From: a virus
DNA length: 39,531 nucleotides
Strand: one strand, 5' to 3'
Virus record (IMG/VR): IMGVR_UViG_3300029258_002322
Coordinates: 1 to 39,531 of that record
In this document: positions 145 through 22,237 of the stretch, in pieces
Numbering within the stretch: the first letter of the stretch is position 1
Layout of the letters: each line of letters starts with the position of its first letter
Notes under the pieces: generated by a model
What the model saw: only the letters and a program-made list of their open reading frames with translations
Database searches by the model: none
Told to the model about the DNA's origin: nothing
Program-made: the position numbers and the translations under genes

Positions 145-750
145 CAGAAGCGGGAGGCGATCAGCGCAGCCTTCCTGAACGACCTGTTCCTGATGCTGAC
201 CCGCGACAAGGAGATGACCGCGACCGAGGTCCTCGAGATCGCGAAGGAGAAGGGCCAGCTCCTCACGCCGACGACCGGCCGCCAGGAGTCGGAGATGCTG
301 GGGCCGCAGATCGAGCGCGAGATTGGCGAGATGATCCGCCAGGGCGCCGTCCCGCCGATGCCGCCCGAGCTCGAGGAGGCCCGCGGCGAGTACGACATCG
401 TCTACGACAACGAGGCCAGCCGGCTCCAGCGGAGCGAGGAGGGCCTGGCCATCACGCGCACGCTGGACGCGATCGGCCACTACTCGCAGTACGACCCGAC
501 GCTCACGGAGCTCCCCGATTGGCACATGGCGATGCGCAGCCTGCGCGAGGTCACGGGGGCGCCGGCCAAGCTCTTCAAGGACGAGCGCGCGGTCAAGCAG
601 GCCATCGCTGCCCAGGCCGAGCGCTCGAGTAAGATGGAGGCGCTCGAGGGCGCCGCGACCGGCGCGGCCGCGCTCAAGGACATGCAGGCCGCGGGCGTCG
701 ACATCAACCAGGCCGCCGCCCAGGCCGGGGCCGGTGAGCTCGTGGCGTGA
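1..750 (+). CDS. Portal (head-tail connector) protein, C-terminal part across the circular join
   Basis: The frame is open from base 1 and continues the gene starting at 38476. Joined over the 144-bp repeat, the two pieces give 553 codons, close to the usual T7 gp8-type length. The portal forms the ring at the unique head vertex through which DNA is packaged and ejected, and it docks the tail tubular proteins. This part holds the C-terminal half of the connector, including a helical stretch around 'ETMMDQKREAISAAFLND' and 'EARGEYDIVYDNEASRLQR', which resembles the Head-tail_con family, followed by an Ala-rich tail. Its stop overlaps the GTG start of the next gene by 3 bases, implying translational coupling. 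The identification rests on family resemblance and on position just before scaffold and capsid genes. Confidence 0.92.
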   Translation, partial: DGPLGKGQRRVKLRPGGLTYGGVDVNGRPTILPLQTGANLPLTETMMDQKREAISAAFLNDLFLMLTRDKEMTATEVLEIAKEKGQLLTPTTGRQESEMLGPQIEREIGEMIRQGAVPPMPPELEEARGEYDIVYDNEASRLQRSEEGLAITRTLDAIGHYSQYDPTLTELPDWHMAMRSLREVTGAPAKLFKDERAVKQAIAAQAERSSKMEALEGAATGAAALKDMQAAGVDINQAAAQAGAGELVA

Positions 751-1061
751 TCCGCGACCAGGAGCAAGCGCTCGAGGAGAAGCTCGAGCTCTGGCGCGCG
801 TACCAGGCGGTCTTCGCTGAGGTGCCCGGCCAGGCGCGCTCGACCGGGAAGCTGGTGCTCGAGGACCTCGCGAGGTTCTGCCACTTCAAATCGAGCACGA
901 TGGCGGGCACAATGGACGACGCGGGGCGGTACGATCCGCTCCAGATGGCAGAGCTCGAGGGCCGGCGGCAGGTCTACCTGCGGATCGTCGGGCTCCTCGA
1001 GACGACAGACTCGGAGCTCCGCGACCTGGTGGTCGGCGAGTTCGAGCAAACGGGGGACTGA
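747..1061 (+). CDS. Bbp19-like small virion-region protein
   Basis: This 104-residue protein starts at a GTG overlapping the portal stop. The N-terminal half is helical and charged. The middle has the pattern 'DPLQMAELEGRRQVYLRI', matching the 'RTAYLEGRRSVYLRI' signature I associate with the Bbp19 family found next to portal genes in podoviruses such as Bordetella phage BPP-1. The molecular role of that family is not established to my knowledge; position between portal and scaffold suggests a head-assembly or minor head role. No membrane segment or signal is present. It ends one base before the scaffold ATG. Confidence 0.7.
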   Translation: MIRDQEQALEEKLELWRAYQAVFAEVPGQARSTGKLVLEDLARFCHFKSSTMAGTMDDAGRYDPLQMAELEGRRQVYLRIVGLLETTDSELRDLVVGEFEQTGD

Positions 1062-2359: not shown

Positions 2360-3244
2360 ATGGGTGTCGAGATCACCACGACTTTCAAGAACAAGTACAA
2401 CGCCAACATCGAGTTCCTGAGCCAGCAGATGCGCTCGAGGTTCCGCGACAAGGTGGAGTACGAGGACTGCATGGGCTCCGAGGGAGCTCGCGTGGTCAAC
2501 CAGATCGGGGCCATCGACCCGGTGAAGCGGACGACCCGCCACGCCGACACGCCCCTGGTCGACACGCCGCACGATGCGCGATGGGTGTACCCGGAGGACT
2601 ACGAGGCCGGCGAGCTCGTGGACCGCCAGGACGTCCTGCGCGCCGTCACCAACCCGACCAGCCGCTACGCGCGAAACTTCGCGATGGCGATGAACCGGGC
2701 GATCGACGACGAGATCATCGCGGCCTTCTTCTCGGACACGACCAAGACCGGGAAGAACGGAACGGTCACGACCGACTGGACGACCTTCATCGGCGCCAGC
2801 ACGGCCCACCACATCGACGCCACGAGCGGGATGACGGTGGAAGCCCTGCGCGCGGCGAAGGAGGCGCTCGAGGCGGCCGAGGTCGACGAGGACGACGAGT
2901 TCTGGGTCGCCATCTCGGCGAAGCAGCACCGCAACCTCCTGAGCGAGACGCAGATCATCTCGCTCGACTACAACGAGAAGCCCGTCCTGGTCGCTGGCAA
3001 GATCAGCTCCTTCATGGGCTTCAACTTCGTCCACTCCGAGCGCCTGGCGACCGACTCTTCGAGCCGCCGCCGGTGCCCGGCCTGGGCGAAGAGCGGCATG
3101 TGCCTCGGCGTCTGGGAGGACATCCGAGGCGAGATCGACCGCCGCCCCGACAAGAGCTACTCCACGCAGGTCTACGCCTGCACCACCATCGGCGCCACGC
3201 GCGTCGAGGAGGAGAAGATCGTCGAGATCGCCTGCACCGAGTAA
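2360..3244 (+). CDS. Major capsid protein
   Basis: This 294-residue protein should form the HK97-fold shell. The N-terminus ('TTFKNKYNANIEFLSQQ') and the central 'YEAGELVDRQDVLRAVTNP' followed by 'NFAMAMNRAIDDEIIAAFF' match the podovirus capsid family (Phage_capsid_2-like). The middle includes a Glu/Asp-rich turn ('AAEVDEDDEFWVAI') and the C-terminus ends in beta-rich sequence. A near-consensus AGGAGGT ribosome site ends 9 bases before the ATG, the strongest in the window and fitting for the most abundant virion protein. It stands alone between a terminator upstream and a hairpin-bearing gap downstream, which suggests separate control of its level. Confidence 0.93.
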   Translation: MGVEITTTFKNKYNANIEFLSQQMRSRFRDKVEYEDCMGSEGARVVNQIGAIDPVKRTTRHADTPLVDTPHDARWVYPEDYEAGELVDRQDVLRAVTNPTSRYARNFAMAMNRAIDDEIIAAFFSDTTKTGKNGTVTTDWTTFIGASTAHHIDATSGMTVEALRAAKEALEAAEVDEDDEFWVAISAKQHRNLLSETQIISLDYNEKPVLVAGKISSFMGFNFVHSERLATDSSSRRRCPAWAKSGMCLGVWEDIRGEIDRRPDKSYSTQVYACTTIGATRVEEEKIVEIACTE

Positions 3245-3326: not shown

Positions 3327-3863
3327 ATGGCCACCTACTACTCCGATCACTTCGGCACGCTGGACGCGACCGACACCGTGGGGCTCTCGAGTCCCGAGGC
3401 CGGCTACAAGGTCGACCCCGGCGCCGGTCACGGACGCAAGCGCTACAAGAGGATGCAGGCGAACGTCCCGGACCAGATGGCGGCGGACGACAAGATCATC
3501 CTCGGCCAGTTCCGAACGAGCGACCGCATCATCGACGTGACGCACACGGCCGACGACCTGTCGGTCGGCGCGGCGACGATGGACCTGGGGTTCTTCTACT
3601 CCGGGGCCAACCACGACGGCGCCGAGCTCGACCGGGACGTCTTCGAGGACGGCCTCTCGGTCGCGGCCGCGGTGACGCGGACGAGCGTGTTCGAGGGAGC
3701 GTCCCTCGGCGACCTGGACTACGGCAAGTACGTCTGGGAGCTCTGCGGGCTCTCGGAGGCGCCGCGGCCCCAGGCGGTCGACCTGGTCTTCTATCTCGCG
3801 ACGGGCCCCGCCGATCTTGGCGGGACGTACCTGGTCGAGGTCGAGTACACGGCCGGCGACTGA
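3327..3863 (+). CDS. Probable capsid cement / head decoration protein
   Basis: This 178-residue protein directly follows the major capsid gene. Its sequence alternates short beta-strand-like blocks with Gly/Asp turns and ends in 'GTYLVEVEYTAGD', a typical last strand of a jelly-roll-like virion protein. BPP-1-like podoviruses encode a cement protein (Bbp16) at this position, and the neighbouring Bbp19-like gene strengthens that comparison. I see no signature that proves homology. The ribosome site AGAAGGGA (3311-3318) supports the ATG. It could alternatively be a head-completion protein. Position carries most of the weight here. Confidence 0.6.
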   Translation: MATYYSDHFGTLDATDTVGLSSPEAGYKVDPGAGHGRKRYKRMQANVPDQMAADDKIILGQFRTSDRIIDVTHTADDLSVGAATMDLGFFYSGANHDGAELDRDVFEDGLSVAAAVTRTSVFEGASLGDLDYGKYVWELCGLSEAPRPQAVDLVFYLATGPADLGGTYLVEVEYTAGD

Positions 3864-3940: not shown

Positions 3941-4132
3941 ATGGCCGCACGAACCATCACCACCACGAGCCAGACGACCGACGACACGCGACCCACGAAC
4001 GGGGGCAGCGGATCGTCGGTGCAGACGCTCGTCTTCTTCGACGACGCGGGCGTCCCGGCGAACATCCTCGCCGCGTTCGACCGCGGCGTCGAGCTCATCG
4101 TCCGCGACTACCAGGAGCAGGCGATCGGATAG
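3941..4132 (+). CDS. Small head-tail region protein, paralogue 1
   Basis: This 63-residue protein has a Thr/Ser/Gly-rich N-terminal half, then a hydrophobic strand with 'TLVFFDDAGVPANI', then one amphipathic helix ('LAAFDRGVELIVRDYQ'). The same plan (polar leader, strand with an aromatic-Asp turn, helix) recurs in the next three genes, so I read the four as diverged tandem duplicates. A GGAGGG site (3931-3936) supports the ATG. The function is unknown; position between cement and tail tubular A suggests a minor virion or assembly role. There is no membrane segment or signal peptide. Confidence 0.65.
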   Translation: MAARTITTTSQTTDDTRPTNGGSGSSVQTLVFFDDAGVPANILAAFDRGVELIVRDYQEQAIG

Positions 4133-4141
4133 GAGGCCCGC

Positions 4142-4336
4142 ATGGCTTCGCAGTTCATCGTGGCGACGCGCAGCGCCGCCCCTGACGCGGACGGCACGAC
4201 CGCGGGAGGCTCGGCCTCCGGCGACCAGGTCATCTTTCAGTTTGACCCGGACATGCCGCTCGAGACGCAGATGCAGGCGCTCGCGAGGGCGCGGGCGCAG
4301 ATCACGAAGCACCTGCGCGGCGACGACGTCGCCTAG
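4142..4336 (+). CDS. Small head-tail region protein, paralogue 2
   Basis: This 64-residue protein starts behind AGGAGG (4131-4136). The leader is Ala/Gly/Asp-rich, followed by 'GDQVIFQFDPDMPLE' and a basic amphipathic helix ('ALARARAQITKHLRG'). The 'GDQV' entry to the strand is shared exactly with paralogue 4, and the aromatic-Asp turn with paralogues 1 and 3. I cannot assign a function. It is separated from paralogue 1 by 9 bases. Confidence 0.65.
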   Translation: MASQFIVATRSAAPDADGTTAGGSASGDQVIFQFDPDMPLETQMQALARARAQITKHLRGDDVA

Positions 4337-4338
4337 CT

Positions 4339-4533
4339 GTGTACGTGAACACCGCGGAGACGGGAACGGCCCGATCGGAGCCAGTCTTCGAGCAGACCGC
4401 CTCGGGCAACCCGTTCACCTACCTGGTGTACTTCGACGACGCCGCGACGATGTCCGAGGTCATCGCCTCGCTCACGCGCGTCGCCGAGGCCGCGCGGAAG
4501 TTCCGCGAGAAGCGCAAGGTGGGGGTCTGGTGA
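4339..4533 (+). CDS. Small head-tail region protein, paralogue 3
   Basis: This 64-residue protein begins at a GTG two bases after the previous stop, with no clear ribosome site, so it probably depends on translational coupling. After a polar leader comes 'FTYLVYFDDAATMSEVI' and a long basic helix ('LTRVAEAARKFREKRK'). The 'YFDDA' turn is close to 'FFDDA' of paralogue 1. Function is unknown. The start is less certain than for its neighbours. Confidence 0.6.
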   Translation: MYVNTAETGTARSEPVFEQTASGNPFTYLVYFDDAATMSEVIASLTRVAEAARKFREKRKVGVW

Positions 4534-4767
4534 ATGGCTGCCCGGCTCCAGTTCGTCTACCCGCTGAGCCTCGGCGTTCGGCCCGAGGACATGCCGAACG
4601 TGTCGGACGGCGGTGCGACGGTCACGGGCGACCAGGTCCGCCTGGTCTTCTACGAGGGCAACATCCCCGGCGCCGGCTATGACGCCGACGAGCTCTTCGA
4701 GCAGATGATCGACCAGGCCGAACGGGCGATCATCGCCTACTACGACGAGAAAGCCATCACGGAGTAG
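4534..4767 (+). CDS. Small head-tail region protein, paralogue 4 (longest)
   Basis: The ATG follows the previous stop codon directly. This 77-residue protein has an extra N-terminal strand ('LQFVYPLSLGV'), then the shared 'GDQVRLVFYEGNIPG' strand and turn, and an acidic C-terminal helix ('LFEQMIDQAERAIIAYYDEK'). It is the most elaborate copy, and its helix is acidic where those of copies 2 and 3 are basic, so hetero-oligomers are conceivable. Function is not known. Confidence 0.65.
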   Translation: MAARLQFVYPLSLGVRPEDMPNVSDGGATVTGDQVRLVFYEGNIPGAGYDADELFEQMIDQAERAIIAYYDEKAITE

Positions 4768-4770
4768 CCC

Positions 4771-5340
4771 ATGCCCAGCACCGTCGAGATCGTCAACACC
4801 GGCCTCCAGCTTCTCGGCACGCGGCACATCACCGACCTCGAGGAGGCCTCGAAGGAGGCGCGCGAGACGGCGCTCGCCTGGCCGCAGATCCGGGACTACT
4901 GCATCCGGCTCCATCCCTGGAATTGCATCGCGAGCTACCACACGTTCTCGCCCGAGGCCGAGACGCCGGCGATGGATTGGGACTACCAGTACGTCCTGCC
5001 CGGCGACTGCGAGCACGTCTGGTCCGTCGACTCCGCGGACACCGACGACTGGCAGGTCCGAGGCCGGCGCCTCTACACCGACCTGGCCGGCCCGCTGACC
5101 ATCTCCTACGCGACGGAGGAGCTCGACTCCGCGCAGTTCGACGCGATGCTGGTCCGCTTCATGGCGCACGAGCTCGCCATCGCGACCTGCGAGGCCCTGG
5201 TCCAGAGCAAGACCAAGAAGCAGGAGCTCGAGAAGGCGCGCGACAAGATCCTGGCCGAGGCCGGCATCTCGGACGGGCGCGAGCAGTCGAACGCGGAGTT
5301 CATCGAGGACGATTGGGTCCTGGCACGATACCGGCGGTAG
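4771..5340 (+). CDS. Tail tubular protein A (T7 gp11-like)
   Basis: This 189-residue protein matches the podovirus tail tubular A family. The N-terminus ('VEIVNTGLQLLGTRHITDLEEASKEA') has the typical 'N..L..LG...I.s..e.s.eA' pattern, followed by 'PQIRDYCIRLHPWNCI' (the family's 'r...L..hpWnFA'), 'YQYVLPGDC' and 'ISYATEELDSAQFDAMLVRFMAHELA'. In T7 gp11 forms a dodecameric ring under the portal and joins it to gp12. The C-terminus is a helical tail rich in Lys/Glu. It is followed after three bases by the tubular B gene, the usual partner order. Confidence 0.9.
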   Translation: MPSTVEIVNTGLQLLGTRHITDLEEASKEARETALAWPQIRDYCIRLHPWNCIASYHTFSPEAETPAMDWDYQYVLPGDCEHVWSVDSADTDDWQVRGRRLYTDLAGPLTISYATEELDSAQFDAMLVRFMAHELAIATCEALVQSKTKKQELEKARDKILAEAGISDGREQSNAEFIEDDWVLARYRR

Positions 5341-8624: not shown

Positions 8625-10276
8625 TGCCCCGCTTCCCCCAGGTCACTCGAGACGCGACCCCCGCGCCGGCGGCCGTGGATAGCGGCGCCGCCGCCCTGGG
8701 CGCCGCGGCGCGCTCCGTGGGTGCGGCCGGCCAGCAGCTCGCCGGGGTCGTCGCCGACGCCGGGCTCCAGTTCGCACGGCAGCGCATCAGCGAGGCCGAG
8801 CAGGACGCGCGCGTCGCGGCCGCCGACTACGAGGTCGAGCTCCAGCAGGAGTGGCAGCGGATCGAGCAGGAGGAGCCCGACCACAACAAGCGGGAGGAGC
8901 TCTTCCGGGACGCGGCGAAGGTCGCGCGGGACGCCTACGCGGATCGCTGGTCCGGTCGGTTCATGGGCCGCGCGAGCGAAATTTTCGACGAGCGGGCGAA
9001 CCTGGTCACGGAGCGCCAGGAGCTCGTGGTCCGCCAGAACGTCTGGAACGAGCGCGTCCGCGTGCGGCGCGGCGCCGTCCTGCGCGTCATCGACCAGAAG
9101 ATCCAGGTCGGCTCCGGCCTGCCCGAGGCGATGCACGGCGTCTACCTGGCCGAGATCGACGACGAGCTCAGCCGCGCGGTGCAGGACAACCTGCTCCCCG
9201 AGGACGAGGCGGCGCGGCTGCGCATCTCGGCGCGCACGCAGCTCCGCACGCGGTTCGAGAGCCTGCGCGTGTCGCGCGAGGCCGACCAGGTCGTGCAGCA
9301 GGCCCTCGCGATCCGCGGGCTCGACGGCACGGACGAGGACCCGGACGGCGAGGCGACCCGCGAGTCGGTCGCGAAGATGCTGGCCGAGATCGACGACGGC
9401 GAGGTCCGCGACCTGGCCCTGCGCCGCTGGCGTGCCCTCGAGGCCCAGCGCGAGGTCGAGCTCGCCCAGGACCGCCAGCGCCTCTACGACCAGGCGACGA
9501 CGGACATCGCGAACGGCGACGGCCACGACGCCATCCCGGCCGGCCTGACCGGCTCGCAGCAGCAGAGCCTCGAGCGCTACGCGGACTACGTCATCGACCG
9601 GCAGACCGAAGGGAAGCTCACCGACATCGAGACGGTGCCGGAGGTCTACGACCGCGTGATGGGTCTGCTGACGACCGACCGGGAGGCCTTCCTCGAGGAG
9701 GACGTCTACGCGCTCCGCATGGAGCTCGCCAACGCCGACTTCAACTTCTTCCTCGGCGCGCAGGCCGAGCTCCGCGCCGGCGCCGGCCGCAGCGCGGCGG
9801 GCGCGGCGGCGCCGGCCTACGCCTCGGGGCCGCGCTGGCTGGCCGCGCAGCGCATCGACGAGCTCGAGCGCCAGGGCCTCCTCCTGACCGAGGGCAGCGA
9901 GCCGGAGGACAGCCGCGGCCAGGTCCACCTGGACCTGTACGACTCGCTCAACCGGGCGCGCGAGCAGCGGCGCACGGAGACGGGCAATGCCGCCTACGAG
10001 CTCTCGGAGGACGAGGCGCGGCGCGCGATCGACATCGTGCTCCTGAACCGCCGGGTCGAGGTGCCGATCCCCTGGTGGCCGGACGGCGAGTCCCGCCCCG
10101 CGGACCTCACGGTCAAGGACCTGGGCCGCATCCAGTTCGACCTGGACCACCCGATCCACCGCGACGTCATCAACGAGGCTGCGGCCGAGGGCGAGACGGT
10201 GGAGCCGGGATCGGCGCGCGTCCGCATCCTGATCCGCGAGCGCCTCGAGATGCTGGGGGCGGACTTCGGTGGCTAG
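8624..10276 (+). CDS. Internal virion protein, T7 gp15-position helical protein
   Basis: The ATG at 8624 overlaps the TAA of the previous gene and gives 550 residues; the upstream extension of this frame overlaps the gp14-like gene and looks like non-coding Arg/Gly sequence. The protein is almost wholly alpha-helical and charged. It has an N-terminal helix pair ('FARQRISEAEQDARVAAADYEVEL'), a long middle solenoid-like region, and a C-terminal part with 'DLGRIQFDLDHPIHRDVINEAAAEG'. It stands between gp14-like and giant gp16-position proteins, so it most likely builds the periplasmic tunnel of the ejection apparatus. Sequence similarity to T7 gp15 is not visible by eye. The stop overlaps the next start by 8 bases. 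Confidence 0.7.
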   Translation: MPRFPQVTRDATPAPAAVDSGAAALGAAARSVGAAGQQLAGVVADAGLQFARQRISEAEQDARVAAADYEVELQQEWQRIEQEEPDHNKREELFRDAAKVARDAYADRWSGRFMGRASEIFDERANLVTERQELVVRQNVWNERVRVRRGAVLRVIDQKIQVGSGLPEAMHGVYLAEIDDELSRAVQDNLLPEDEAARLRISARTQLRTRFESLRVSREADQVVQQALAIRGLDGTDEDPDGEATRESVAKMLAEIDDGEVRDLALRRWRALEAQREVELAQDRQRLYDQATTDIANGDGHDAIPAGLTGSQQQSLERYADYVIDRQTEGKLTDIETVPEVYDRVMGLLTTDREAFLEEDVYALRMELANADFNFFLGAQAELRAGAGRSAAGAAAPAYASGPRWLAAQRIDELERQGLLLTEGSEPEDSRGQVHLDLYDSLNRAREQRRTETGNAAYELSEDEARRAIDIVLLNRRVEVPIPWWPDGESRPADLTVKDLGRIQFDLDHPIHRDVINEAAAEGETVEPGSARVRILIRERLEMLGADFGG

Positions 10277-13200
10277 TCCCTTCGACGACCTCGAGATCGC
10301 GTTTCAGTCGGCGAGCGTCCTGAGCGCGCCGGAGTACGCCCGCGGGCTGCGCCTGGCGACCGAGGCCCAGGTCCCGGTCGACACCGCCATGCGGAACGCC
10401 GACGAGCTCGAGCGGCGCCAGAATCGCCCGGATATGCGGCAGTACGCGGCCGAGAACCCGCTCACCGCCGGCTGGCTGCGCAACAACCTGGAGGCGGTGC
10501 CGGCCGTCCAGGACGACCTCGAGGAAATGTCGATCTTCGAGCGCATGATCGGCGACGTCGGGGTCAACTTCGAGAAGAGCCTCAACCGATTCAACTCGCA
10601 GCCTCACAAGCTGCGGGCCCTCTTCGGCCAGGCCGACGACTACGACGAGGCGATGATCCGTTACTACCAGGCCGAGGCGGCCGGGCTCGAGCAGGAGGCC
10701 AGCCGGTACGGCCTGTCGAACCCCTGGCAGTCCTGGCAGCAGGGGCGCTACGGCGACTTCCTGGCGGCCGTGCCGGGCGCCGTCGTCGAGCAGTCGACGA
10801 TTCTGGCCGACCAGGTCGTGTCCCGCGCGGCGGGGTTCGGCATCGGATTCGTGGGCGGGGCGGCCGCGGGCGTGGGCACCGGCCCTGGGATGCTCGCGAC
10901 CGGCCTGGCCGGCGCCGCGGTCGGGCAGAACCTCGGCGGCTTCATCTCGAGCTACAAGATGGAGTCGGCCCTGCTCTACGAGGAGCTCCGCGACCTCGAG
11001 GGCATCGACGAGGACCACGCGCGCTACCTGGCCGGGACCGCCGCGATCCCGATCGCGTCGCTCGAGTTCCTGCCGATCACCGCCCTGACCAAGAAGATCC
11101 CCGGCGTCGGCCGCACGCTCACGGCCTGGACGACGGACGCGATGGTCGAGGTGCTCAAGAAGCAGTCGTTCCGGTCGGCGACGAAGCACCTGGTCTTCGA
11201 GACGGCCGGCCAGGCCGGCGTCGAGGGCGTGACGGAGGTGCTCCAGGAGACGCTGGGCATCCTGGCCGAGATGGCCGGTCACGAGCTCGCGGGCGACAAT
11301 TGGGAGGAGGCCCTGGTCATGCAGGTCCCGCAGCCGGACGGCTCCGTCGTCGAGCTCGTCGGGATGGATGCGGTGATGGCGCGGCTGATGACGGCCGGCG
11401 TCCGCGGCGCGCAGGGCGGCGGCGGCATGTCCGGGATCATCACCGCCGGCGGCGTCGTGTCGGACGTCGCGACGGCCGAGCGGTCGGAGACGCGCTGGGA
11501 GCTGGGCGCCCGGCTCACGCGCCTGGCCCAGCGCTCCAATCTGCGCGAGCAGCAGCCCGAGCTCTACCAGGACTACGTGCGCGAGGTCGTCGAGCAGGGC
11601 GCCGCGCCCGAGCACGTCTACGTGAACGCCGAGAACCTGCGCGAGCACTTCGAGACGATGCCCGACGAGGAGGCCGAGGCGCTCCTCGAGCAGGTCCCGG
11701 CGCTCCTCGAGCAGGACGCCGAGGTGCTCCGCACGGGCGGCGACTTCGTCATCCCGATGGACCAGTACCTCCGCGGCATGGCGCCGAGCTCCATCCTCCA
11801 GAATCTCGGCGAGCACATTCGCTTCGCGGCCGAGGACCTGAGCCAGGCCGAGGTGCGGGAGAAGATCGAGAGCGGCGCCTTCGCGCGGGAGTTCTCCAGC
11901 ATCCTCGAGCGGGTCGACGACGAGGAGGCCGGCGTCCTGGTCGCGGTGCGCGAGCACCAGGAGGAGCAGCTCCGGCGCGTCCACGCGCCGACGCAGGCCG
12001 CGGCCCTGGCGGCCTGGCAGGTCGCGCGACTCCAGCGTCGGGTCGAGGCCCTGCGCGAGGACGGGGTCGACATCAGCATCGCCAACCTGATCGCGCAGCA
12101 GGGGCTCCCGGTCATCCGGCCGCCGGAGACGAGCGACGAGGCGATGGCGAAGATCGTCGAGAACACGCCGACCCTCGAGCAGCGCCTCGAGCGGCGGTCG
12201 ATCCTGCGCCAGGTCGACGACCTGCGGAAGAACCGCCGCCGCGCCCTCGAATCCATGCCGGCCAGGCCGGTCCTCTCGGCCCTGCGCGACATCGGCGGCA
12301 TCGACCCGGACTCGCCCCTGGCCGGCGACCTGGAGAGCCTGGGCGTCGCCCGGCGCGGCCGCGGCTCGTTCCCTGGCATCTACCGCCGGGGCGCCGAGGG
12401 CCTGGACCAGCGCGACCTGACGGAGTCGCCGATCACGGAATGGCTGGGCGAGTTCCTCGAGCTCGACGAGTACGGCCGCGGCGACCCCAACGCCATCCTC
12501 GGGCTGATCGAGCAGGAGCTCGCCGGCCAGGGTCCGCGGCCGTTCGAGCAGGCCGAGCAGCTCGCCCAGGAGCGCCAGGGGCGCGAGGCCCTGCTCAACG
12601 CGATGGAGGCGGCCGGCGTCAAGCTGACCGACGACGACCAGAAGATCGCCGAGGCGCTGGTGCCGGTGGCCGCGCGCCGCGCGGTCGAGCCGGTGCGGCC
12701 CGAGGGCCGGCAGTTCTTCCAGGTCAACGAGCGGCGAACGGTCGAGGAGACGGTGGCGTCGGAGGCGTTCCAGCGCTGGCTGGGCGACGCGCGCCTGGTC
12801 CTCGAGCCCGAGCTCCACGACTTCCAGCCCGGCGAGGCGGTCGTCGTCCTGGCCTATCACGGGACGACGCACGAGCTCGACACCGTCGAGGCCGGCGTGG
12901 GGAACCCCGAGAATTTCCTGGGGCGGGCGTTCTACGCCACGAGCTCCGAGCAGGACGCGCTCGACAACTATGCCGGGATCGGGCCGGACCTGACCGCGCG
13001 CATCCAGCAGCGCGTCGACCAGCTCGAGCAGGAGATGATGGACGACCTGGAGGGGTTCGACCTTCCTCCCGACACGCTGCCGGGCTCGAGCGCGATCAGC
13101 GCGAAAGCCTACGAGGTCGCGCAGTCCGAGCTCGTCGGCGCCCTGGGCGAGGAGGGCCAGGTCCTCCCGGTCTTCATCAAGCTGGAGAATCCGGCGATCC

Positions 13201-16200
13201 TCGCGGGCGACCAGCGGGCCGGGCACTTCGTCGAGCTCTACGAGTACGGCGAGGAGGACGCGGACGGCGACGTCGAGATCGACGAGTCGCGCCTTGAGGC
13301 AGTCGTCGACTACCTCGAGGGCCTGACCCAGAACGATGGGCTCTGGGACGTCAACGTCGAGAGCATCGTCCAGGGGCTCACCGAGAACGGCGGCGAGATC
13401 ACGGTCGACGACCTGGTCGACGCCGTGAAGCACGACAATTACGCGACCGACGAGACGGGCCGGCTCTTCGCGAGCGAGATGGCGATGGGCGTCCTCCAGG
13501 CCCTCGGCTTCGACGGCGTCATCCAGCTCGACGCCGCCGAGCGGTGGCGGAACATGGCGATCCCGGCGGACGCGGTCCACGTCATCGTGCCCGATCCGGG
13601 CGGCGCCGTGAAGAGCACGCAGGCCTCGGTTTTCGACCCCAAGAGCGACCGGATCTTCTTTCAGCCGGTCGGCGAGCTCGAGCCGGTTCCGCTCGAGAAG
13701 AAGGGCCCGCTCTACTCGAAGATGCGCCAGGTGCTCGAGGACAAGCTGCCCGCGAAGGGCACGCCCCAGAGCTACCGCTCGACGATTGAGAAGATGGGCA
13801 AGACCGGGAAGTACAAGGCCGACGAGCTCGACGTCTCCGGCCTGATCCCCTGGCTGATGGCCCACCCGGCGAAGAAGCTGACGAAGGACGAGGTCTTCGC
13901 GTTCCTCGACGCCCAGGGCCCGAGCATCATCCTCGAGCGTAGGGGCGGGCGGAACGCCGACCAGGCCGACCGCAACAACCTGAACGTCGAGGTCGACATC
14001 GAGACGTTTGACCGCGACGCCGCCTACGACGATCTGATCGAAGGAGAGCGCGAGTTCGTCCGCGACTACGTCGAGCAGGAGGTCCGGGACCGGCCGGAGG
14101 ACTTCGGCCTGGAGCCCGACGAGGACGGGAACATCGAGGACTTCGCCATCAACGACGAGGTCCAGAACCAGCTCAACAGCGGCGCCTGGGACGAGATGGT
14201 CGAGAGCCAGATGCAGCAGGCGATGGAGGACGCGGAAGCCGACTTCGTCCCGTACATCGAGGGCCAGGAGTGGGGCGAGCTGGGCTACCGCTTCGAGCCC
14301 TACAGCGGCCCGCTCGAGTTCGCGATCTACGACGGCGACCGGAATCGGGTCGGCACGTTCGAGGCCCTCTACCCCGAGCCCGACGAGATCGAGGAGCGCT
14401 TCATCGAGGCCCTGGTCGAGATCGGCGCGGTCTACGACGAGGACAACGATCCGAGCGGGACCGAGTACGAAAACTGGACCGTCCCCGGCGACCGAGAGGA
14501 GTACCAGGAGGTCACGCTCGCGCTGCCCGAGGCGCTGACCTGGAACGTCACCCGGTTTCTCTCCGAACGCGGCCTGGACGTGAAGGACGCCATCGCCTTC
14601 GACAAGGTGCTGATCGAGAACGGGGTCGCCCGGCACTTCGGCATCGAGCAAGGCGTCCCGGTCGAGCGGTGGGAGGCGCGCGAGAAGGCGGTCCTCGAGC
14701 AGGAGCTCAACGACTACGAGCAGGGCAGCGTCGAGAACCGCAACGCCGTCCTGTTCCGAGCGGTGAAGCGCGCGTCGCCGGCGGACCTGCGGAAGCACCA
14801 CGAAACCTGGGGCTGGATCGCGGGCCTCCTGCGCCACCCGGACGCCACGATCGGCCCGGTCTATCGCGACCCGCACTTCCACCAGGAGCGGACGATCGGC
14901 CACTACCGGCGCGACCTGCGGAAGCCTCCGAGCCGCGTCGAGGACGGCGTCGAGTTCATCCCTCTGGGCCCGATCTTCTTCCTCGAGGAGCTCCAGAGCG
15001 ATTGGCACAACGACGCGCGGAAGGACTACAAGAAGGCCTACCGCGCGCTCCGCGACGAGGGCTACAGCCGCGAGGAGGCCAAGGCCGCGGCGTCTGGGTA
15101 CATCGACATGGAGGCCTGGGGCAAGCTCAAGACCCAGGAGCGGCTGATCTACCAGTTGGGCAACGACCGCCAGACGCTCGAGCGCCAGATCGAGGGAATG
15201 GAGCCGGGGAGCGACGCGGCGCACACCTACATGAAGGGGGCGATGGAGCTTCGCGAGCGGCTGCGCCGGCTCCGGGCCGGGACGCTCGTCCCGCCGTTCG
15301 ACGGCGGCGGCCCCGAGCTCAGCGCCGAGGAGTACGGCCAGCGCCGCCAGGCCGCGATCGACCGCGAGACGGCCGAGACGGAGAGCGCGCTGGCGACGCT
15401 CGAGAGCGCCTTCGACGAGCAGAGCCTTTCCCCGCGTGCGATGGAGGTCCTCGAGGCCATTCGGAACCTCGACGCCGAGCTCCTGGTCGCGAAGGCGAGG
15501 CTGCGAGAGATGCAGCAGGACACCGCGTTCGAGTGGGCGACCAAGGGCGTCCCCAACGCTCCGCTCAAGAACGCCTGGAGGATGCTCGTCTTCAAACACG
15601 CGCTCCTCGACGCGATCGAGCAGGGCGCCAAGCGCTTCCAGTGGGCAACCGGCGCGCAGACCGCCGAGCACTACAGCCTGCGCAAGACCGTCGACCGCAT
15701 CGAGACAGGGCCGACGCCGGCGGCCTCGCAGAGGTTCGCGGGCAAGCTCGACGTCGACATCGTGATGCAGGACAACCGGGGCACCATTGGCCTGATCGTC
15801 GAGCCGTCGACCGGCATCGTTCTCCAGGGGGACGATAAGTTCTTCGACGAGGACCTGCGAGACATCATCGGCACCGAGGTCGCCGAGCGCGTCCTCGCGG
15901 CTGGCAACCGCGAGCTCGAGAAGAAGCAGCGCGCGATGGACCGGGACATCGTCCCCTACCCCTTCTCGATGGTCGACCAGGGCACGACCGAGGATCGCTC
16001 TGCGCAGTTCGCGCTGCGCCGGCGGGACGCGGGCGAAGAGGTCTTCGCGGTGCGCAGCCGTGAGGGCATCTGGGACCGCTACGAGGAGACGACCGACTGG
16101 AGCGTGATTCGGGCGTTCACCTCGGAGGCCGAGGCGCAGGCCTACATCGAGGCGTCCGCCGAGCGGGCCGGCCTCGACTCCGTTCAGATCAGCGGCAAGG

Positions 16201-19200
16201 ACCTCGAGCTGGGCGGCGAGTGGGCGGTCCACCTCTACGACAACACGATGCCGCGCGAGATCGGCAAGCTGCTCAAGCCCTGGGGCGTCGAGGTCAAGAA
16301 GCTCCCGCTCGAGGTCGGGCATCGGGCGATCCCGCGCTTCGAGCCCAATTCGATCTGGGAAAACGCGACGGCCGACGACGTCGCGGAATCGCTGCAAGGG
16401 GTCGACCGCACCGAGGGGGCCGCAGAGTTGAGCATGTGGAACGCGCTCAACTCCGTCGAGCACGCCATGCGGAACCAGGGCCTTTCGTTCCAGCGGGCGA
16501 TGTCGCTCCACGGCAACGCCCTGGTGTCGAGCACGTTCAGCATGGGGGCTTTCGAGTTCGACCGCGAGATCCGCGTCGAGGACACCTGGGGCTTCGAGAT
16601 CACCGACGAGCTCGTGCGCGGCGTGCGCGAAGAGGGGATGGAGCTCTTCCAGCCCGAGGACACGAGCGAGGGCCCGACCGGCGCGGTCCCGCCGAAGGGC
16701 GAGCGCCGCGGCAGCGTCCGTATCGCGCCCGACCTGAGCCAGAAGGAGATCGTCTGGACCGAGAAGGCGGACCTCTCGACCTTCCTCCACGAGAACGGGC
16801 ACGTCTGGCTCGAGGAGCTCAAGGCTGACGCCGCCCTGGCCGGCGAGGGCTCTGCCCTGGCGCGCGACCTCCAGGTCCTCCGGCAGTTCTTCGGCCTCGA
16901 GGAGGGCCAGGACTTCTCCGACAAGCACCACGAGCGCTTCGCCCGCATGGTCGAACAGTGGATCATGGAGGGGAACGCGCCGAGCCTCGAGCTCGAGCCG
17001 CTCTTCATGCGCTTCCAGCGCTGGCTGGTCGACGTCTACCGGACGATCCGCAACAGCTACTTCGGCGGGCCGCAGCTCACCGACGAGGTGCGCGGCATCC
17101 TCGACCGCATGGTCGCCAGCGAGGAGGCGATCCAGGAGGCGCGGAACGCGCGCGGCCTGTCCATCGAGCTCTTCGAGGACGCCGGCGAGGCCGGCATGGA
17201 CCTCCAGGAGTGGAACGACTACCGCGGCGCCCTCGAGCAGGGACGGCTCCACGCGCGGACCTGGATGGTCCGCAAGATGGTCGCCGAGGAGAAGCGGAAG
17301 CTGGCGAAGGAGTGGCGCCGGCTGCGCGAGATCGAGGAGAAGCACGTCCTCGAGGAGATCGCCGGCGAGGGCCTCTGGGCCGCGCGCCACTGGCTCCAGC
17401 GGAACACGTCGATCGACGGGCGCGAGCTCTTCGAGGAGGCCCAGGAGCACGTCCGCCTGGACCGCGACGACCTGGTCGCGCGCTGGGGGCGGGACATTCT
17501 CAAGGAGATCCCGCGCGGGAAGTACGGCGTCTGGCAGAAGGACGGCGCCCCGGTCGACCTGGTCGCGTCCTGGTTCGGGGTCGACGCGGACGAGCTCGTC
17601 CGCTTCCTGGCCGACACGAAGGGCACGCCCCTCAAGGACGAGATCGCGCGTCGCACCGATGCCAACATGAAGGACAAGCACGGGACGCTCGAGACGAGCG
17701 AGCAGCTCGAGCAGGCGGCGGTCGAGGCGCTCAACCAGGACGCCGCGCTGCGGGCCCTGCTGATTGAGGAGCGCGCCCTGGCGCGCAAGAGCGGCGGCCG
17801 CGCGACGGCCGAGAAGCTGCTCCGGCTCCAGGCGAAGCGCACCGTCCAGGACACCCGCATCATGGACCTGCGCCCGGACCGGCTGCGGCGAGCGGCCGAG
17901 AAGGCCGCGCGGGACGCGCAGCGGTTCGTCCAGGAGGGCGACGCGAAGAGCGCGCAGCTCGCGAAGCAGCGCCAGGTCTTCTCGCTGATGGTCGAGGTCG
18001 AGGCCCGGCGCGGGCGCGAGCGCTCCGAGCGCAACCAGGAGTTCTTCTACCGCATCCAGGACTCGAAGAACGCGACGCGGATCAAGCTCGTGAAGGCGGG
18101 CGACCGCTACGTCGACCAGGTCGACAAGCTGATGGAGCGCTTCGGCTTCAAGCGGATCAGCCGCAAGAAGATCGAGCAGCGCCAGAAGCTCCGCGACTTC
18201 CTGAGCGACCGCGAGCGGGACGACGAGTCCGTCGCCGCGATCCCCGAGTGGGTGCGCGACGAGGCGATGCAGAAGAATTGGAAGGAGCTCACGGTCAGCG
18301 AGCTCGACGGCCTGCGCGACTCCGTCGACAACATCGTGACCCTCGCCCGGCGCAAGGTCGAGCTGATGGTGGGGAGCGAGCACCGCGAGATGGACGCCCT
18401 GGCCGAGGAGCTCGCCCAGGTCGCGCGCGACAACGTGGGCGCCCGGCTGGTGACGCCGCCCGGCTCGCAGCGGCGCGGGCTCAAGGGCAAGTGGGATCGC
18501 GGCACGGCGGCCCTGATGTCCTACGAGGCCTCGCTGCTCAAGATCGAGCAGGTCATCGACCGCATCGACGGCTTCGTCCCGGACGGCCTGTGGCGCAAGA
18601 CGATCTGGCAGCCGCTCCGCGACGCGGCGACCGAGCGCCTCGAGATGAGCGAGAAGATCACCGCGCAGTATGAGCGCATGGTCAAGGAGCTCGCCGAGGG
18701 CCGCGCCCGCGAGCTCAACGAGGTGAAGCACTACCCCGAGCTCGAGCGGCCGGGCGTCACGGACGGGCGATACTCCAAGTGGTCGCTGATCGTCATCGCG
18801 CTCAACCTGGGCAACGAGTCCAACGCGATGAAGCTGACGAAGGGGTACAACTGGAACGAGCAGCAGCTCCTCGCCATCCTCGAGCGCGAGCTCACGGCGA
18901 AGGACCTGGCCTTCGTCCAGGAGACGTGGAACCTGGTCAACTCGCTCTGGCCGAAGATCGTCGAGCAGGAGAAGAAGCTGTCCGGCGTCATCCCCGAGGC
19001 CGTCGAGGGGCGCGACGTGAAGATCGGCGGCACGACCCTCAAGGGCCGCTACTTCCCCGTCGTCTACGACCTCCAGACCCGCACGACCCAGGGCGACACG
19101 CGCGTCCAGGAGTGGGGCGAGGCGGGCGAGCTCTTCGAGACGGAGCAGAACCAGTTTCGTCGGCCGCTCACCGGCCACGGCCACACGGAGCGCCGCACGG

Positions 19201-20474
19201 GCGCGGCCTTCCCGATCCTGCTCGAGGCCTCGGTCATCGCGTCGCACCTGGACCAGGTCGTCCTGGACCTCACGCACCGCGAGACGCTGATGCGGATCGA
19301 CAAGATCCTGCGGCGGCCCGACATCAAGCAGGCCCTCAACGAGACGATCGGCGAGGAGGACCGCAAGCAGTTCCGGCCCTGGCTCCAGCGGATCGCGTCC
19401 GACCGCTACATCGCGACGAGCTCCTTGCAGGGCATGGACCGGATCTACCGCTTCTTCCGCACGCGGACGACGGCCCTCGGCCTGGGCCTGCGCGCGACGA
19501 CGCTGGCGATGCAGGTCGGCGGCCACTCGAACGGCATCCAGCTCCTCCGCGACCGCCTGGGGCGGAAGAACTACCTCCGGCACTACATGGGCGCGGTGGG
19601 CCAGACCGGCATGGCGTTCTCGCCTGGCCGTCTGCTCGCGCTCCAGAACGAGGTGTTCGAGCTCTCCGGCTTCATGCGGGACCGGGTCGCCAATCTCGAC
19701 CGCGACATGCGGCAGATTCAGCGGGAGGCCGAACGCAGCGGTGCGCTGCCGGGCGAGAAGATGACCGACTTCCCGGCCAGGGCGCGCTCCTGGGCGCTGG
19801 GCCTGATTGGCCGGATGCAGATGAACACGGTCGACCTGCCGATCTGGCTGGCCGCCTACAACGGCGCGCTCGAGGACCTGGGCCTGGACGGCGACGCGGC
19901 CGTCTCGTTCGCCGACCAGATGGTGAGTCAGAGCCAGGGCTCCGGCGCGGCGATGGACCTGTCGGCGGTGCAGGCCGGCGCCGAGGCCTACAAGCTGGCC
20001 ACGATGTTCTTCTCGTACCAGAACACGGTCTACCAGCAGCTCCGCAACTCCTTCCTGCGCGCTCGAGACAAGGGCGAGTATTGGAACGCGGCGGGCACGG
20101 CCGTCTTCTGGCTGATGGCCCCGGCCGTCTTCTCCCAGCTCGTGCGCTCCGTCCTCTCGCAGCACGGCGAGCTCCCCGAGGAGCCCGAGGACTGGCCGTG
20201 GTGGTTGGCCGGCGCCACGCTGAACGAGGCCCTCGGTACAATCCCGGTCGTGCGGGAGGTGTCTCCGCTGGTGGGCCAGGCCTTCGGCTACGGCAAATAC
20301 TTCCCCTCGAGGACCGCCTCGCAGCGGTTCGCCGAGGACTTCCAGCGCGCGGCGCACTTCAACGATGACGACTGGTTCCTCGAGCTCGCCGCGTTCGTGA
20401 CGGGCTGGGTCGGGGGCCTCCCGACCGCGGGACCGATCGACGCCTACGAGCTCCTCGAGGAGGGCAAGAAATGA
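10269..20474 (+). CDS. Giant 3,401-residue polyvalent ejection protein (ART-like, EIQSDWH-type and HExxH peptidase-like domains)
   Basis: The GTG start overlaps the gp15-position gene, so this occupies the T7 gp16 slot and is likely ejected into the host with the DNA. Visible modules: a helical N-terminus with a Gly/Ala hydrophobic stretch (about 175-225); an 'IGGIDPDSPLAG' domain (675-686); an ADP-ribosyltransferase-like region starting at HGT (864-866), with 'AFYATSS' and a 'VFIKLENPAIL' strand, ending at IFFQ (1129-1132); a region with EELQSDWH (1573-1580), 'WATGAQTAEHYSL' and GGEW (1982-1985); a zincin-like site HENGH (2174-2178) followed by 'HERFARMVEQWIMEG' with E2229 as possible third ligand; a long helical region; and a C-terminus with hydrophobic helices. 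These match domains of phage polyvalent proteins. I see no lytic transglycosylase motif. Enzyme activities are inferred. Confidence 0.88.
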   Translation: MASPFDDLEIAFQSASVLSAPEYARGLRLATEAQVPVDTAMRNADELERRQNRPDMRQYAAENPLTAGWLRNNLEAVPAVQDDLEEMSIFERMIGDVGVNFEKSLNRFNSQPHKLRALFGQADDYDEAMIRYYQAEAAGLEQEASRYGLSNPWQSWQQGRYGDFLAAVPGAVVEQSTILADQVVSRAAGFGIGFVGGAAAGVGTGPGMLATGLAGAAVGQNLGGFISSYKMESALLYEELRDLEGIDEDHARYLAGTAAIPIASLEFLPITALTKKIPGVGRTLTAWTTDAMVEVLKKQSFRSATKHLVFETAGQAGVEGVTEVLQETLGILAEMAGHELAGDNWEEALVMQVPQPDGSVVELVGMDAVMARLMTAGVRGAQGGGGMSGIITAGGVVSDVATAERSETRWELGARLTRLAQRSNLREQQPELYQDYVREVVEQGAAPEHVYVNAENLREHFETMPDEEAEALLEQVPALLEQDAEVLRTGGDFVIPMDQYLRGMAPSSILQNLGEHIRFAAEDLSQAEVREKIESGAFAREFSSILERVDDEEAGVLVAVREHQEEQLRRVHAPTQAAALAAWQVARLQRRVEALREDGVDISIANLIAQQGLPVIRPPETSDEAMAKIVENTPTLEQRLERRSILRQVDDLRKNRRRALESMPARPVLSALRDIGGIDPDSPLAGDLESLGVARRGRGSFPGIYRRGAEGLDQRDLTESPITEWLGEFLELDEYGRGDPNAILGLIEQELAGQGPRPFEQAEQLAQERQGREALLNAMEAAGVKLTDDDQKIAEALVPVAARRAVEPVRPEGRQFFQVNERRTVEETVASEAFQRWLGDARLVLEPELHDFQPGEAVVVLAYHGTTHELDTVEAGVGNPENFLGRAFYATSSEQDALDNYAGIGPDLTARIQQRVDQLEQEMMDDLEGFDLPPDTLPGSSAISAKAYEVAQSELVGALGEEGQVLPVFIKLENPAILAGDQRAGHFVELYEYGEEDADGDVEIDESRLEAVVDYLEGLTQNDGLWDVNVESIVQGLTENGGEITVDDLVDAVKHDNYATDETGRLFASEMAMGVLQALGFDGVIQLDAAERWRNMAIPADAVHVIVPDPGGAVKSTQASVFDPKSDRIFFQPVGELEPVPLEKKGPLYSKMRQVLEDKLPAKGTPQSYRSTIEKMGKTGKYKADELDVSGLIPWLMAHPAKKLTKDEVFAFLDAQGPSIILERRGGRNADQADRNNLNVEVDIETFDRDAAYDDLIEGEREFVRDYVEQEVRDRPEDFGLEPDEDGNIEDFAINDEVQNQLNSGAWDEMVESQMQQAMEDAEADFVPYIEGQEWGELGYRFEPYSGPLEFAIYDGDRNRVGTFEALYPEPDEIEERFIEALVEIGAVYDEDNDPSGTEYENWTVPGDREEYQEVTLALPEALTWNVTRFLSERGLDVKDAIAFDKVLIENGVARHFGIEQGVPVERWEAREKAVLEQELNDYEQGSVENRNAVLFRAVKRASPADLRKHHETWGWIAGLLRHPDATIGPVYRDPHFHQERTIGHYRRDLRKPPSRVEDGVEFIPLGPIFFLEELQSDWHNDARKDYKKAYRALRDEGYSREEAKAAASGYIDMEAWGKLKTQERLIYQLGNDRQTLERQIEGMEPGSDAAHTYMKGAMELRERLRRLRAGTLVPPFDGGGPELSAEEYGQRRQAAIDRETAETESALATLESAFDEQSLSPRAMEVLEAIRNLDAELLVAKARLREMQQDTAFEWATKGVPNAPLKNAWRMLVFKHALLDAIEQGAKRFQWATGAQTAEHYSLRKTVDRIETGPTPAASQRFAGKLDVDIVMQDNRGTIGLIVEPSTGIVLQGDDKFFDEDLRDIIGTEVAERVLAAGNRELEKKQRAMDRDIVPYPFSMVDQGTTEDRSAQFALRRRDAGEEVFAVRSREGIWDRYEETTDWSVIRAFTSEAEAQAYIEASAERAGLDSVQISGKDLELGGEWAVHLYDNTMPREIGKLLKPWGVEVKKLPLEVGHRAIPRFEPNSIWENATADDVAESLQGVDRTEGAAELSMWNALNSVEHAMRNQGLSFQRAMSLHGNALVSSTFSMGAFEFDREIRVEDTWGFEITDELVRGVREEGMELFQPEDTSEGPTGAVPPKGERRGSVRIAPDLSQKEIVWTEKADLSTFLHENGHVWLEELKADAALAGEGSALARDLQVLRQFFGLEEGQDFSDKHHERFARMVEQWIMEGNAPSLELEPLFMRFQRWLVDVYRTIRNSYFGGPQLTDEVRGILDRMVASEEAIQEARNARGLSIELFEDAGEAGMDLQEWNDYRGALEQGRLHARTWMVRKMVAEEKRKLAKEWRRLREIEEKHVLEEIAGEGLWAARHWLQRNTSIDGRELFEEAQEHVRLDRDDLVARWGRDILKEIPRGKYGVWQKDGAPVDLVASWFGVDADELVRFLADTKGTPLKDEIARRTDANMKDKHGTLETSEQLEQAAVEALNQDAALRALLIEERALARKSGGRATAEKLLRLQAKRTVQDTRIMDLRPDRLRRAAEKAARDAQRFVQEGDAKSAQLAKQRQVFSLMVEVEARRGRERSERNQEFFYRIQDSKNATRIKLVKAGDRYVDQVDKLMERFGFKRISRKKIEQRQKLRDFLSDRERDDESVAAIPEWVRDEAMQKNWKELTVSELDGLRDSVDNIVTLARRKVELMVGSEHREMDALAEELAQVARDNVGARLVTPPGSQRRGLKGKWDRGTAALMSYEASLLKIEQVIDRIDGFVPDGLWRKTIWQPLRDAATERLEMSEKITAQYERMVKELAEGRARELNEVKHYPELERPGVTDGRYSKWSLIVIALNLGNESNAMKLTKGYNWNEQQLLAILERELTAKDLAFVQETWNLVNSLWPKIVEQEKKLSGVIPEAVEGRDVKIGGTTLKGRYFPVVYDLQTRTTQGDTRVQEWGEAGELFETEQNQFRRPLTGHGHTERRTGAAFPILLEASVIASHLDQVVLDLTHRETLMRIDKILRRPDIKQALNETIGEEDRKQFRPWLQRIASDRYIATSSLQGMDRIYRFFRTRTTALGLGLRATTLAMQVGGHSNGIQLLRDRLGRKNYLRHYMGAVGQTGMAFSPGRLLALQNEVFELSGFMRDRVANLDRDMRQIQREAERSGALPGEKMTDFPARARSWALGLIGRMQMNTVDLPIWLAAYNGALEDLGLDGDAAVSFADQMVSQSQGSGAAMDLSAVQAGAEAYKLATMFFSYQNTVYQQLRNSFLRARDKGEYWNAAGTAVFWLMAPAVFSQLVRSVLSQHGELPEEPEDWPWWLAGATLNEALGTIPVVREVSPLVGQAFGYGKYFPSRTASQRFAEDFQRAAHFNDDDWFLELAAFVTGWVGGLPTAGPIDAYELLEEGKK

Positions 20475-22237
20475 CGATCAGCGCAGCGAGCTCGAACCGC
20501 GTCCGCCTGGCGGGCACCGGCAGCGAGCTCAACTTCAACTTCGACTTCCGCATCCTGAAAGCCGAGGACCTCCTGGTCGTCGTCCAGGACGCGGCCGGCG
20601 TGGACACGACCAAGACCTTGACGACCGACTACACGGTCAGCGGGGTCGACGACGAGAACGGCGGGACGGTCACGTTCCTGGTGCCGCCGGCTGCGACCGA
20701 GTTCGTGTCGATCATCCTGGACCCGGACGTCGAGCAGCCCACGAGCCTGTCCAACAAGGGCCAGCTCCCCTCGAGGTCGATCGAGAAGGGGCTCGACCGC
20801 AACGTCAACATCATCAAGCGAGCTCGCGACCTGATCGAGCGGGCGCTCACGCTGGGCGAGGGCGACGCGGACGGATCGGGCGCCTACGAGGCCAACGGCA
20901 ACCGCATCGAGAACCTGGGCGCGGCGATCAACGACGCCGACGCGATGACGAAGGCCGCCGTCCAGGCGCTCGTTGCGGCTGCGGTGCTCTCGCCCTCGAC
21001 CGTGGTGTCGGCCTTCGGCGCCACGCTGATCGACGACGCGACGGCGGACGACGCGCTCGTCACCCTGGGCGGCGGGACGAAGGGCATCGCGCTCTTCAAG
21101 GACACGACCAACGCGGCCGTCTTCACGGAGCTCGGGATCACGTCCTCGGCGATCCAGCTCTTCCTGGCGTCCGTCAATGCGGCGGCCGGCCGGCAGAACC
21201 TCGGAATCCCCGGCGTCATCCCGAACCCGAATTGGCTCGACAACTCCGACATGCAGGTCTGGCAGCTCGGCACGACCTTCAACAACTCGACTCCGTTCAC
21301 GAACGCGAACGGCGATGCGGAGTGGACGGCCGACCGCTGGCGGCTGCTGACGAACGGGGTCGACGTGGTCGACGTCGCGAAGAGCGCCGTCAACGACGTG
21401 CCGGTCGGCGCGAAGAGCGGCCTGGTGGTGACGCAGCAGATCGCCGACACGAAATGGGGCCTGGTCCAGGTCCTCGACCAGGCGAAGAGCGAGGCCCTGG
21501 CCGACCAGGCCTGCTCGCTGTCGATGCGCATCAAGGCGCCGAACGACCTCAAGCAGTTCAAGCTCCTGGTGGCCGAGTGGACCGGCACGGCCGACGCGCC
21601 GACCGCCGACCCTGTCTCGGCCTGGAACGGCGCGCAGGTCCGGCCGACCCTGGTCGCGAATTGGGCCTACGTGTCGGGCGCGGAGCTCGACATCACGGTC
21701 GCCGGGTCGGATTGGGAGACGTTCGAGCTCGAGAATTTCACGATGGGGAGCTCGCCGAACAACCTGGCCGTCATCCTCGTGACCAACGCCGCCAGCTTCG
21801 GCGTCTCCGCGGCCGTCCACGTCTCGGGGGTCAAGCTCGAGCTCGGCGCCGTCTCGACGCCCTACGAGTCCAAGAGCTTCGCGACCGAGTGGGCCGAGGC
21901 CCGGCGCTTCTTCTGGAAGACGTTTGACGAGCAGGTCTTCCCGGAGCAGAACAGCGGGGACGAGGTGGGCGCGATCGTCGCGCACATCCTCAACAACGCG
22001 AGCACCAACGAGCTCGAGGCCTACGTGCGCTTCGAGGTGCCGATGCTCAAGGCGCCCACGCTCACGACCTTCAACCCGCACGCCGCCAACGCGAATTGGC
22101 GGAACGACGGGAACACGGGCGACCTGGCCCTGGGCAACAGTCGCTCCGACCGCGTGGCCTTCTATCTGGGGTCGGCGGACGCCGGCGGCCTGGACGACTT
22201 CTACCTGATTCACGCGAGCGCTGACGCTCGCATCTAG
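20471..22237 (+). CDS. Tail fibre with T7 gp17-type N-terminus
   Basis: This 588-residue protein overlaps the giant gene by ATGA. The N-terminus ('VRLAGTGSELNFNFDFRIL', 'TDYTVSGVDDENGGTVTFL', 'SRSIEKGLDRNVNIIKRARDL') has the layout of the T7 tail-fibre attachment domain that binds the tubular proteins. A helical and repetitive shaft follows. From about residue 250, 'NPNWLDNSDMQVWQLGTTF' and 'WTADRWRLL' begin a beta-sandwich of the kind found in carbohydrate-binding fibre tips, ending with 'VKLELGAVSTPYESKSF'. The last 100 residues form a further beta-rich cap. It should recognise a surface glycan of the host. There is no obvious chaperone gene beside it. Confidence 0.85.
   Translation: MTISAASSNRVRLAGTGSELNFNFDFRILKAEDLLVVVQDAAGVDTTKTLTTDYTVSGVDDENGGTVTFLVPPAATEFVSIILDPDVEQPTSLSNKGQLPSRSIEKGLDRNVNIIKRARDLIERALTLGEGDADGSGAYEANGNRIENLGAAINDADAMTKAAVQALVAAAVLSPSTVVSAFGATLIDDATADDALVTLGGGTKGIALFKDTTNAAVFTELGITSSAIQLFLASVNAAAGRQNLGIPGVIPNPNWLDNSDMQVWQLGTTFNNSTPFTNANGDAEWTADRWRLLTNGVDVVDVAKSAVNDVPVGAKSGLVVTQQIADTKWGLVQVLDQAKSEALADQACSLSMRIKAPNDLKQFKLLVAEWTGTADAPTADPVSAWNGAQVRPTLVANWAYVSGAELDITVAGSDWETFELENFTMGSSPNNLAVILVTNAASFGVSAAVHVSGVKLELGAVSTPYESKSFATEWAEARRFFWKTFDEQVFPEQNSGDEVGAIVAHILNNASTNELEAYVRFEVPMLKAPTLTTFNPHAANANWRNDGNTGDLALGNSRSDRVAFYLGSADAGGLDDFYLIHASADARI

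Follow-up and report, generated by a model that had tools for sequence, protein, structure and literature searches.

The stretch of viral DNA analysed here, referred to below at its full length of 39,531 nucleotides as the window, carries four consecutive small open reading frames on its plus strand. They are located between a cement-like gene and the gene for tail tubular protein A (TTA), the head–tail adaptor, and consist of 63, 64, 64 and 77 codons, exactly as the original prediction, made from the letters of the DNA, had placed them. The genes of this region are as follows.

2360..3244, plus strand: major capsid protein gene, the anchor of the survey (PF19821, E=2e-77)
3327..3863, plus strand: cement-like or virion structural protein gene, a flanking gene and not a member of the small family (phrog_8455 'virion structural protein', weak match, E=0.0027)
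3941..4132, plus strand: copy 1 (w1), 63 aa, with the strong Shine-Dalgarno sequence GGAGGG; the clearest member of the small pre-TTA family
4142..4336, plus strand: copy 2 (w2), 64 aa, with the strong Shine-Dalgarno sequence AGGAGG
4339..4533, plus strand: copy 3 (w3), 64 aa, GTG start without Shine-Dalgarno sequence, 2 nt past the copy 2 stop
4534..4767, plus strand: copy 4 (w4), 77 aa, with an insertion between the second strand and the helix; the most acidic copy, directly 5' of TTA
4771..5340, plus strand: TTA or head–tail adaptor gene, flanking (phrog_394 tail protein, E=1.5e-43)

The four genes are tightly packed: 9, 2 and 0 nt separate the successive copies, and 3 nt separate copy 4 from TTA. 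The GC content at codon position 3 was 0.92–0.95 for the copies, near that of the flanking capsid, cement and TTA genes, and on this evidence, together with the Shine-Dalgarno sequences, the reading of the four genes as chance open reading frames was dropped. The GTG start of copy 3 lacks a Shine-Dalgarno sequence and adjoins the stop of copy 2, suggesting that translation of the two is coupled; this leaves the start codon of copy 3 uncertain, with 4345 as a possible alternative. The start of copy 4 immediately follows the stop of copy 3, and both copies 3 and 4 are apparently coupled to the upstream stops. Of the two flanking genes, the cement-like gene has a homologue in the relative L011 with 64% identity; the match of the cement profile to the 'Capsid Decoration Protein' of PDB 8cjz was not significant (E=0.89). 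The TTA family profile matched the 'Connector Protein' of PDB 8ck1 (E=2.7e-23), which is a homologue of the neighbouring TTA.

All the motifs that had been quoted for the hydrophobic strand and its turn (LVFFDDAG, VIFQFDPD, LVYFDDAA and VRLVFYEG) are present in the four proteins, and GDQV is common to copies 2 and 4. The charge pattern that had been described, basic helices in copies 2 and 3 and an acidic one in copy 4, holds for copy 3 (+3.5) and copy 4 (−4.2), but the helix of copy 2 carries only about +0.9. The isoelectric points of the whole proteins are 4.2, 4.6, 6.2 and 4.1 for copies 1–4, indicating that all are acidic to near neutral. By profile search, with a profile that includes the four copies by construction, a fifth copy was not found in the window.

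Three other genes of the window were noted. The product of the gene at 747-1061 (plus strand) is Bbp19-like (PF25181, E=1.1e-11) and links the structural module with BPP-1-like podoviruses. A 3,401-aa open reading frame at 10269-20474 (plus strand) has an LPD22 domain at its N-terminus (Pfam, E=6.5e-10), which makes it a probable giant polyvalent protein such as some podoviruses carry in their virions. The 588-aa protein encoded at 20471-22237 (plus strand) weakly resembles the N-terminal domain of the T7 tail fibre, with an E-value (0.00079) that does not reach the curated cut-off.

The small proteins matched no known family. Pfam and PHROGs scans of the four window copies gave no convincing match, and scans of the window copies and/or 29 relatives against Pfam, PHROGs and NCBIfam gave only scattered matches at chance level. 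No chain of the PDB matched the small family significantly in a sequence search, and one member, used as a tblastn query against annotated phages, gave no match. The small pre-TTA family is uncatalogued in Pfam, PHROGs and NCBIfam.

To place the cluster among its relatives, the survey compared viral contigs sharing a homologous capsid gene (50) or a homologous TTA (80), 30 bacterial genome contigs and several annotated phages. In many of the relatives a single gene of about 62 aa was observed in the capsid-to-TTA interval, sharing with the window copies the plan of a strand, a T/S/G-rich stretch, a second strand, a turn and a helix. An iterated profile gathered 36 distinct members. Of the TTA loci, 133 distinct ones extended far enough upstream to be judged; 35 were positive and 98 negative. 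The 35 are a lower bound, since members diverge strongly and the starts of genes were picked mechanically. Candidate prophages that carry the gene are those of Trinickia soli GP25-8 (L153) and Rhodospirillaceae bacterium R-7 (L163). Wherever a positive locus was read in detail, the small gene followed the cement gene and preceded TTA, in most cases with 1–13 nt separating it from TTA; otherwise one small gene of about 90–120 aa intervenes between the two. Such a second small gene before TTA, apparently beta-rich (90–117 aa), was seen at L030:6692-7009, L035:6584-6937, L054:3963-4253 and L001:4717-4989, the last of which had no PHROG match. A 205-aa open reading frame of a different kind ('VAVVGCGPSMQDYVNIK...') lies between the cement and small genes at L034:6387-7004.

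Most positive relatives have one copy. When the whole records of 12 relatives were scanned with the profile, six had a single matching locus, at this place and nowhere else, and the remaining six had no match. The record of L026 contains two matching stretches, both within one 131-aa open reading frame (L026:3323-3718), in which two units are fused and each half was matched separately. The single small pre-TTA gene of other uncultured podoviruses (L013, L014, L017 and L030; also MW202898.1, UOF83098.1, annotated 'hypothetical protein') agrees with the window copies in place, length, strand–strand–helix plan and profile similarity, and differs in number, with one copy per genome (two fused in L026) against four in the window. 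A search for closer relatives through the small protein or TTB found none, hence no genome with two or three separate copies. In L059, L060, L146 and L147, which are close relatives by TTA, the cement-like gene is followed directly by TTA; as many relatives have no small gene, the group as a whole can dispense with it.

The small genes that occupy this slot in ZP6, VP5, Vibrio phage 1.182.O, HTVC010P, HTVC024P, BcepC6B, a Manatee Spring phage and phiV10 were considered as homologues and rejected, for none gave a significant profile match. Two of these, Vibrio phage 1.182.O gp10 (L176:4903-5076) and VP5 gp08 (L181:3215-3484), follow a strand-then-helix plan and are possible far relatives. On whether related phages carry unrelated genes at this locus, the survey thus gave a mixed answer: 35 of the 133 loci have a homologue, in one case as two fused units, and the others have an unrelated gene or none. 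A gene of this family at this place is not peculiar to the window phage, since many relatives carry one, and the family sits in a subset of HTVC010P/BPP-1-like podoviruses, between the cement and adaptor genes.

The four genes had been described as diverged tandem paralogues, and the blind profile, pairwise alignment and tree altogether support this description, well for copies 1–3 and moderately for copy 4. The blind profile was built without the window sequences, and scored copies 1–4 at 11.7, 6.0, 2.0 and 5.3 bits. When 1,691 small open reading frames, taken in all frames of the coding strand, were ranked with it, 0, 1, 32 and 2 non-family frames outscored copies 1, 2, 3 and 4, respectively. 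Because many of these frames are not real genes, a stricter control set was made of 117 distinct, gene-like and unrelated small proteins from loci of lower GC content. Against this set copies 1, 2 and 4 outscored all controls, and copy 3 fell below two. When the window was searched with this profile under filtering, no window copy was recovered, indicating that the relationships are remote, and that the blind evidence for copies 2–4 consists of their ranking against controls, not of strong E-values.

Pairwise local alignment, with p taken from the same 117 controls, gave z=9.0 for w1–w3 (reached by 0 of 117 controls) and z=5.0 for w1–w2 (p 0.009). The similarity was weak for w1–w4 (z=2.4, p 0.026) and w3–w4 (z=2.0, p 0.017), marginal for w2–w4, and absent for w2–w3. 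Shuffling inflates z for any protein of strand–helix type, so that trust belongs to the p-values, which were taken against real proteins. Over 50 columns copy 1 shares 44% identity with the L013 protein, and it is closest to the single gene of L008, L011 and L013, the nearest relatives; at the capsid protein, the window is about 73% identical to L011 and L013. All four copies grouped with the single genes of these three (support 90/95), on a tree with very long branches, that of copy 3 being the longest, in which the four copies alone do not form one clade.

From these comparisons it is very probable that all four genes arose as copies of a single uncatalogued small gene and have since diverged. 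The homology is firm for copies 1–3 and moderate for copy 4, the least certain member. That copy 4 is unrelated, and resembles the three true paralogues only through the common strand–helix plan, is an unlikely reading that still deserves some weight, and one compatible with any function of the proteins. Its pairwise similarity to the others is marginal (z 1.7–2.4), and other phages, such as VP5 and Vibrio phage 1.182.O, have strand–helix proteins in this slot without significant relationship; against this, copy 4 stands above every gene-like control with the blind profile and clusters with the other copies in the tree. Duplication in the lineage of the window is the simplest reading of the cluster, loss of extra copies in the relatives being a possible alternative.

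A structural plan common to the copies had also been noted. In the AlphaFold2 model of copy 1, made with 37 other sequences, strands at 3–9 and 28–34 are followed by a helix at 39–62, and the model of the fused L026 relative consists of two such beta-beta-alpha units. The two models agree with the shared strand–helix plan, but at low confidence (mean pLDDT 62 for copy 1; pLDDT 61 for the fused relative), and prove little. Foldseek detected no significant match for copy 1 in a viral library or for the fused relative in the PDB. The small protein of about 60 aa, mostly acidic, is thus predicted with low confidence to be of beta-beta-alpha form.

Two pairs of close relatives serve as natural experiments on the function of the small protein. 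Between L008 and L011 the identity is 94% for the major capsid protein, 95% for TTA and 82% for the small protein, but only 39% for the cement protein. Likewise, between L027 and L034 the small protein is 80% and TTA 72% identical, against 28% for cement. The small protein is kept alike while cement is replaced, indicating that no particular cement protein is needed. Across pairs, small-protein identity followed TTA slightly best (Pearson 0.78, against 0.73 for cement and 0.65 for capsid), a margin too slight to count by itself; the rank correlations are low (0.28–0.36), and the tracking with TTA may be simple linkage.

We infer that the small protein would be a dispensable accessory protein, either of the virion or of its assembly, acting together with the adaptor or portal end of the head and not with any single cement protein. 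The fused double unit suggests that it is probably oligomeric, and the four copies may have become specialised, whether as parts of one mixed assembly or at separate sites. Tandem diverged copies of one small protein, serving as a dispensable and probably oligomeric accessory at the head–tail junction, are the tentative reading preferred here, at a strength somewhat short of probable.

Two other functions were weighed against it. The small proteins might be accessory decoration proteins, binding the outside of the head shell as epsilon15 gp10 or T4 Soc do, with copies diverged for different capsid sites or surroundings. The small gene adjoins the cement gene, its patchy presence fits a dispensable decoration protein, and the capsid-to-adaptor interval of phiV10 holds a gene annotated as epsilon15p10-like. 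Decoration proteins of the epsilon15 gp10 and BPP-1 type are, like the window copies, products of small accessory genes, and epsilon15 gp10 itself is a precedent for an expendable stabilising decoration protein, with a predicted beta-jellyroll (PMC7602432). Neither PHROG and Pfam scans nor profile comparison with phiV10 p12/p13 related the window copies to known decoration proteins of the Bbp16 and epsilon15 gp10 kinds, however; the small protein persists through replacement of the cement protein, and the local cement gene probably already has the decoration role. We regard decoration as possible, with considerably less in its favour than the junction role.

Somewhat more doubtful is a role, by analogy with T7 gp7.3, as assembly chaperones or scaffolds for the adaptor or nozzle, which would be absent from the virion or partly kept in it. 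The small size of the copies and their translation just before TTA, with the apparent coupling of copies 3 and 4, are consistent with such a role. For T7, a small protein, gp7.3, helps to assemble the nozzle into the adaptor, and is thus a functional precedent of a very small accessory tail protein of a podovirus; its N-terminus is, unlike the window copies, mostly positively charged (PMC11784390). The PHROG scans of the window copies gave no match to gp7.3. The gene for gp7.3 also occupies a position different from that of the small genes of the window, which counts against this role.

The hetero-oligomer, neck collar, fibre base and chaperone roles of the original prediction are putative; what favours them is the location in the head–tail module, and as such they are a fair idea. 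Under the most detailed form of the junction reading, a homo-oligomeric neck protein would have become, by repeated duplication in one lineage, a hetero-oligomer of four components, breaking or matching symmetry where portal and adaptor meet. This we hold to be distinctly improbable, and equally so the corollary that relatives with a single copy or a fused pair would preserve earlier stages.

What is new is an uncatalogued small family of the head–tail module, present in environmental podoviruses and some prophages at a copy number of 0, 1, 2 (fused) or 4. Should the four copies assemble together, this range of copy numbers would preserve, as a natural record, the change from homomer to heteromer within a virion. 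If they do not, the family still names a target for virion proteomics.
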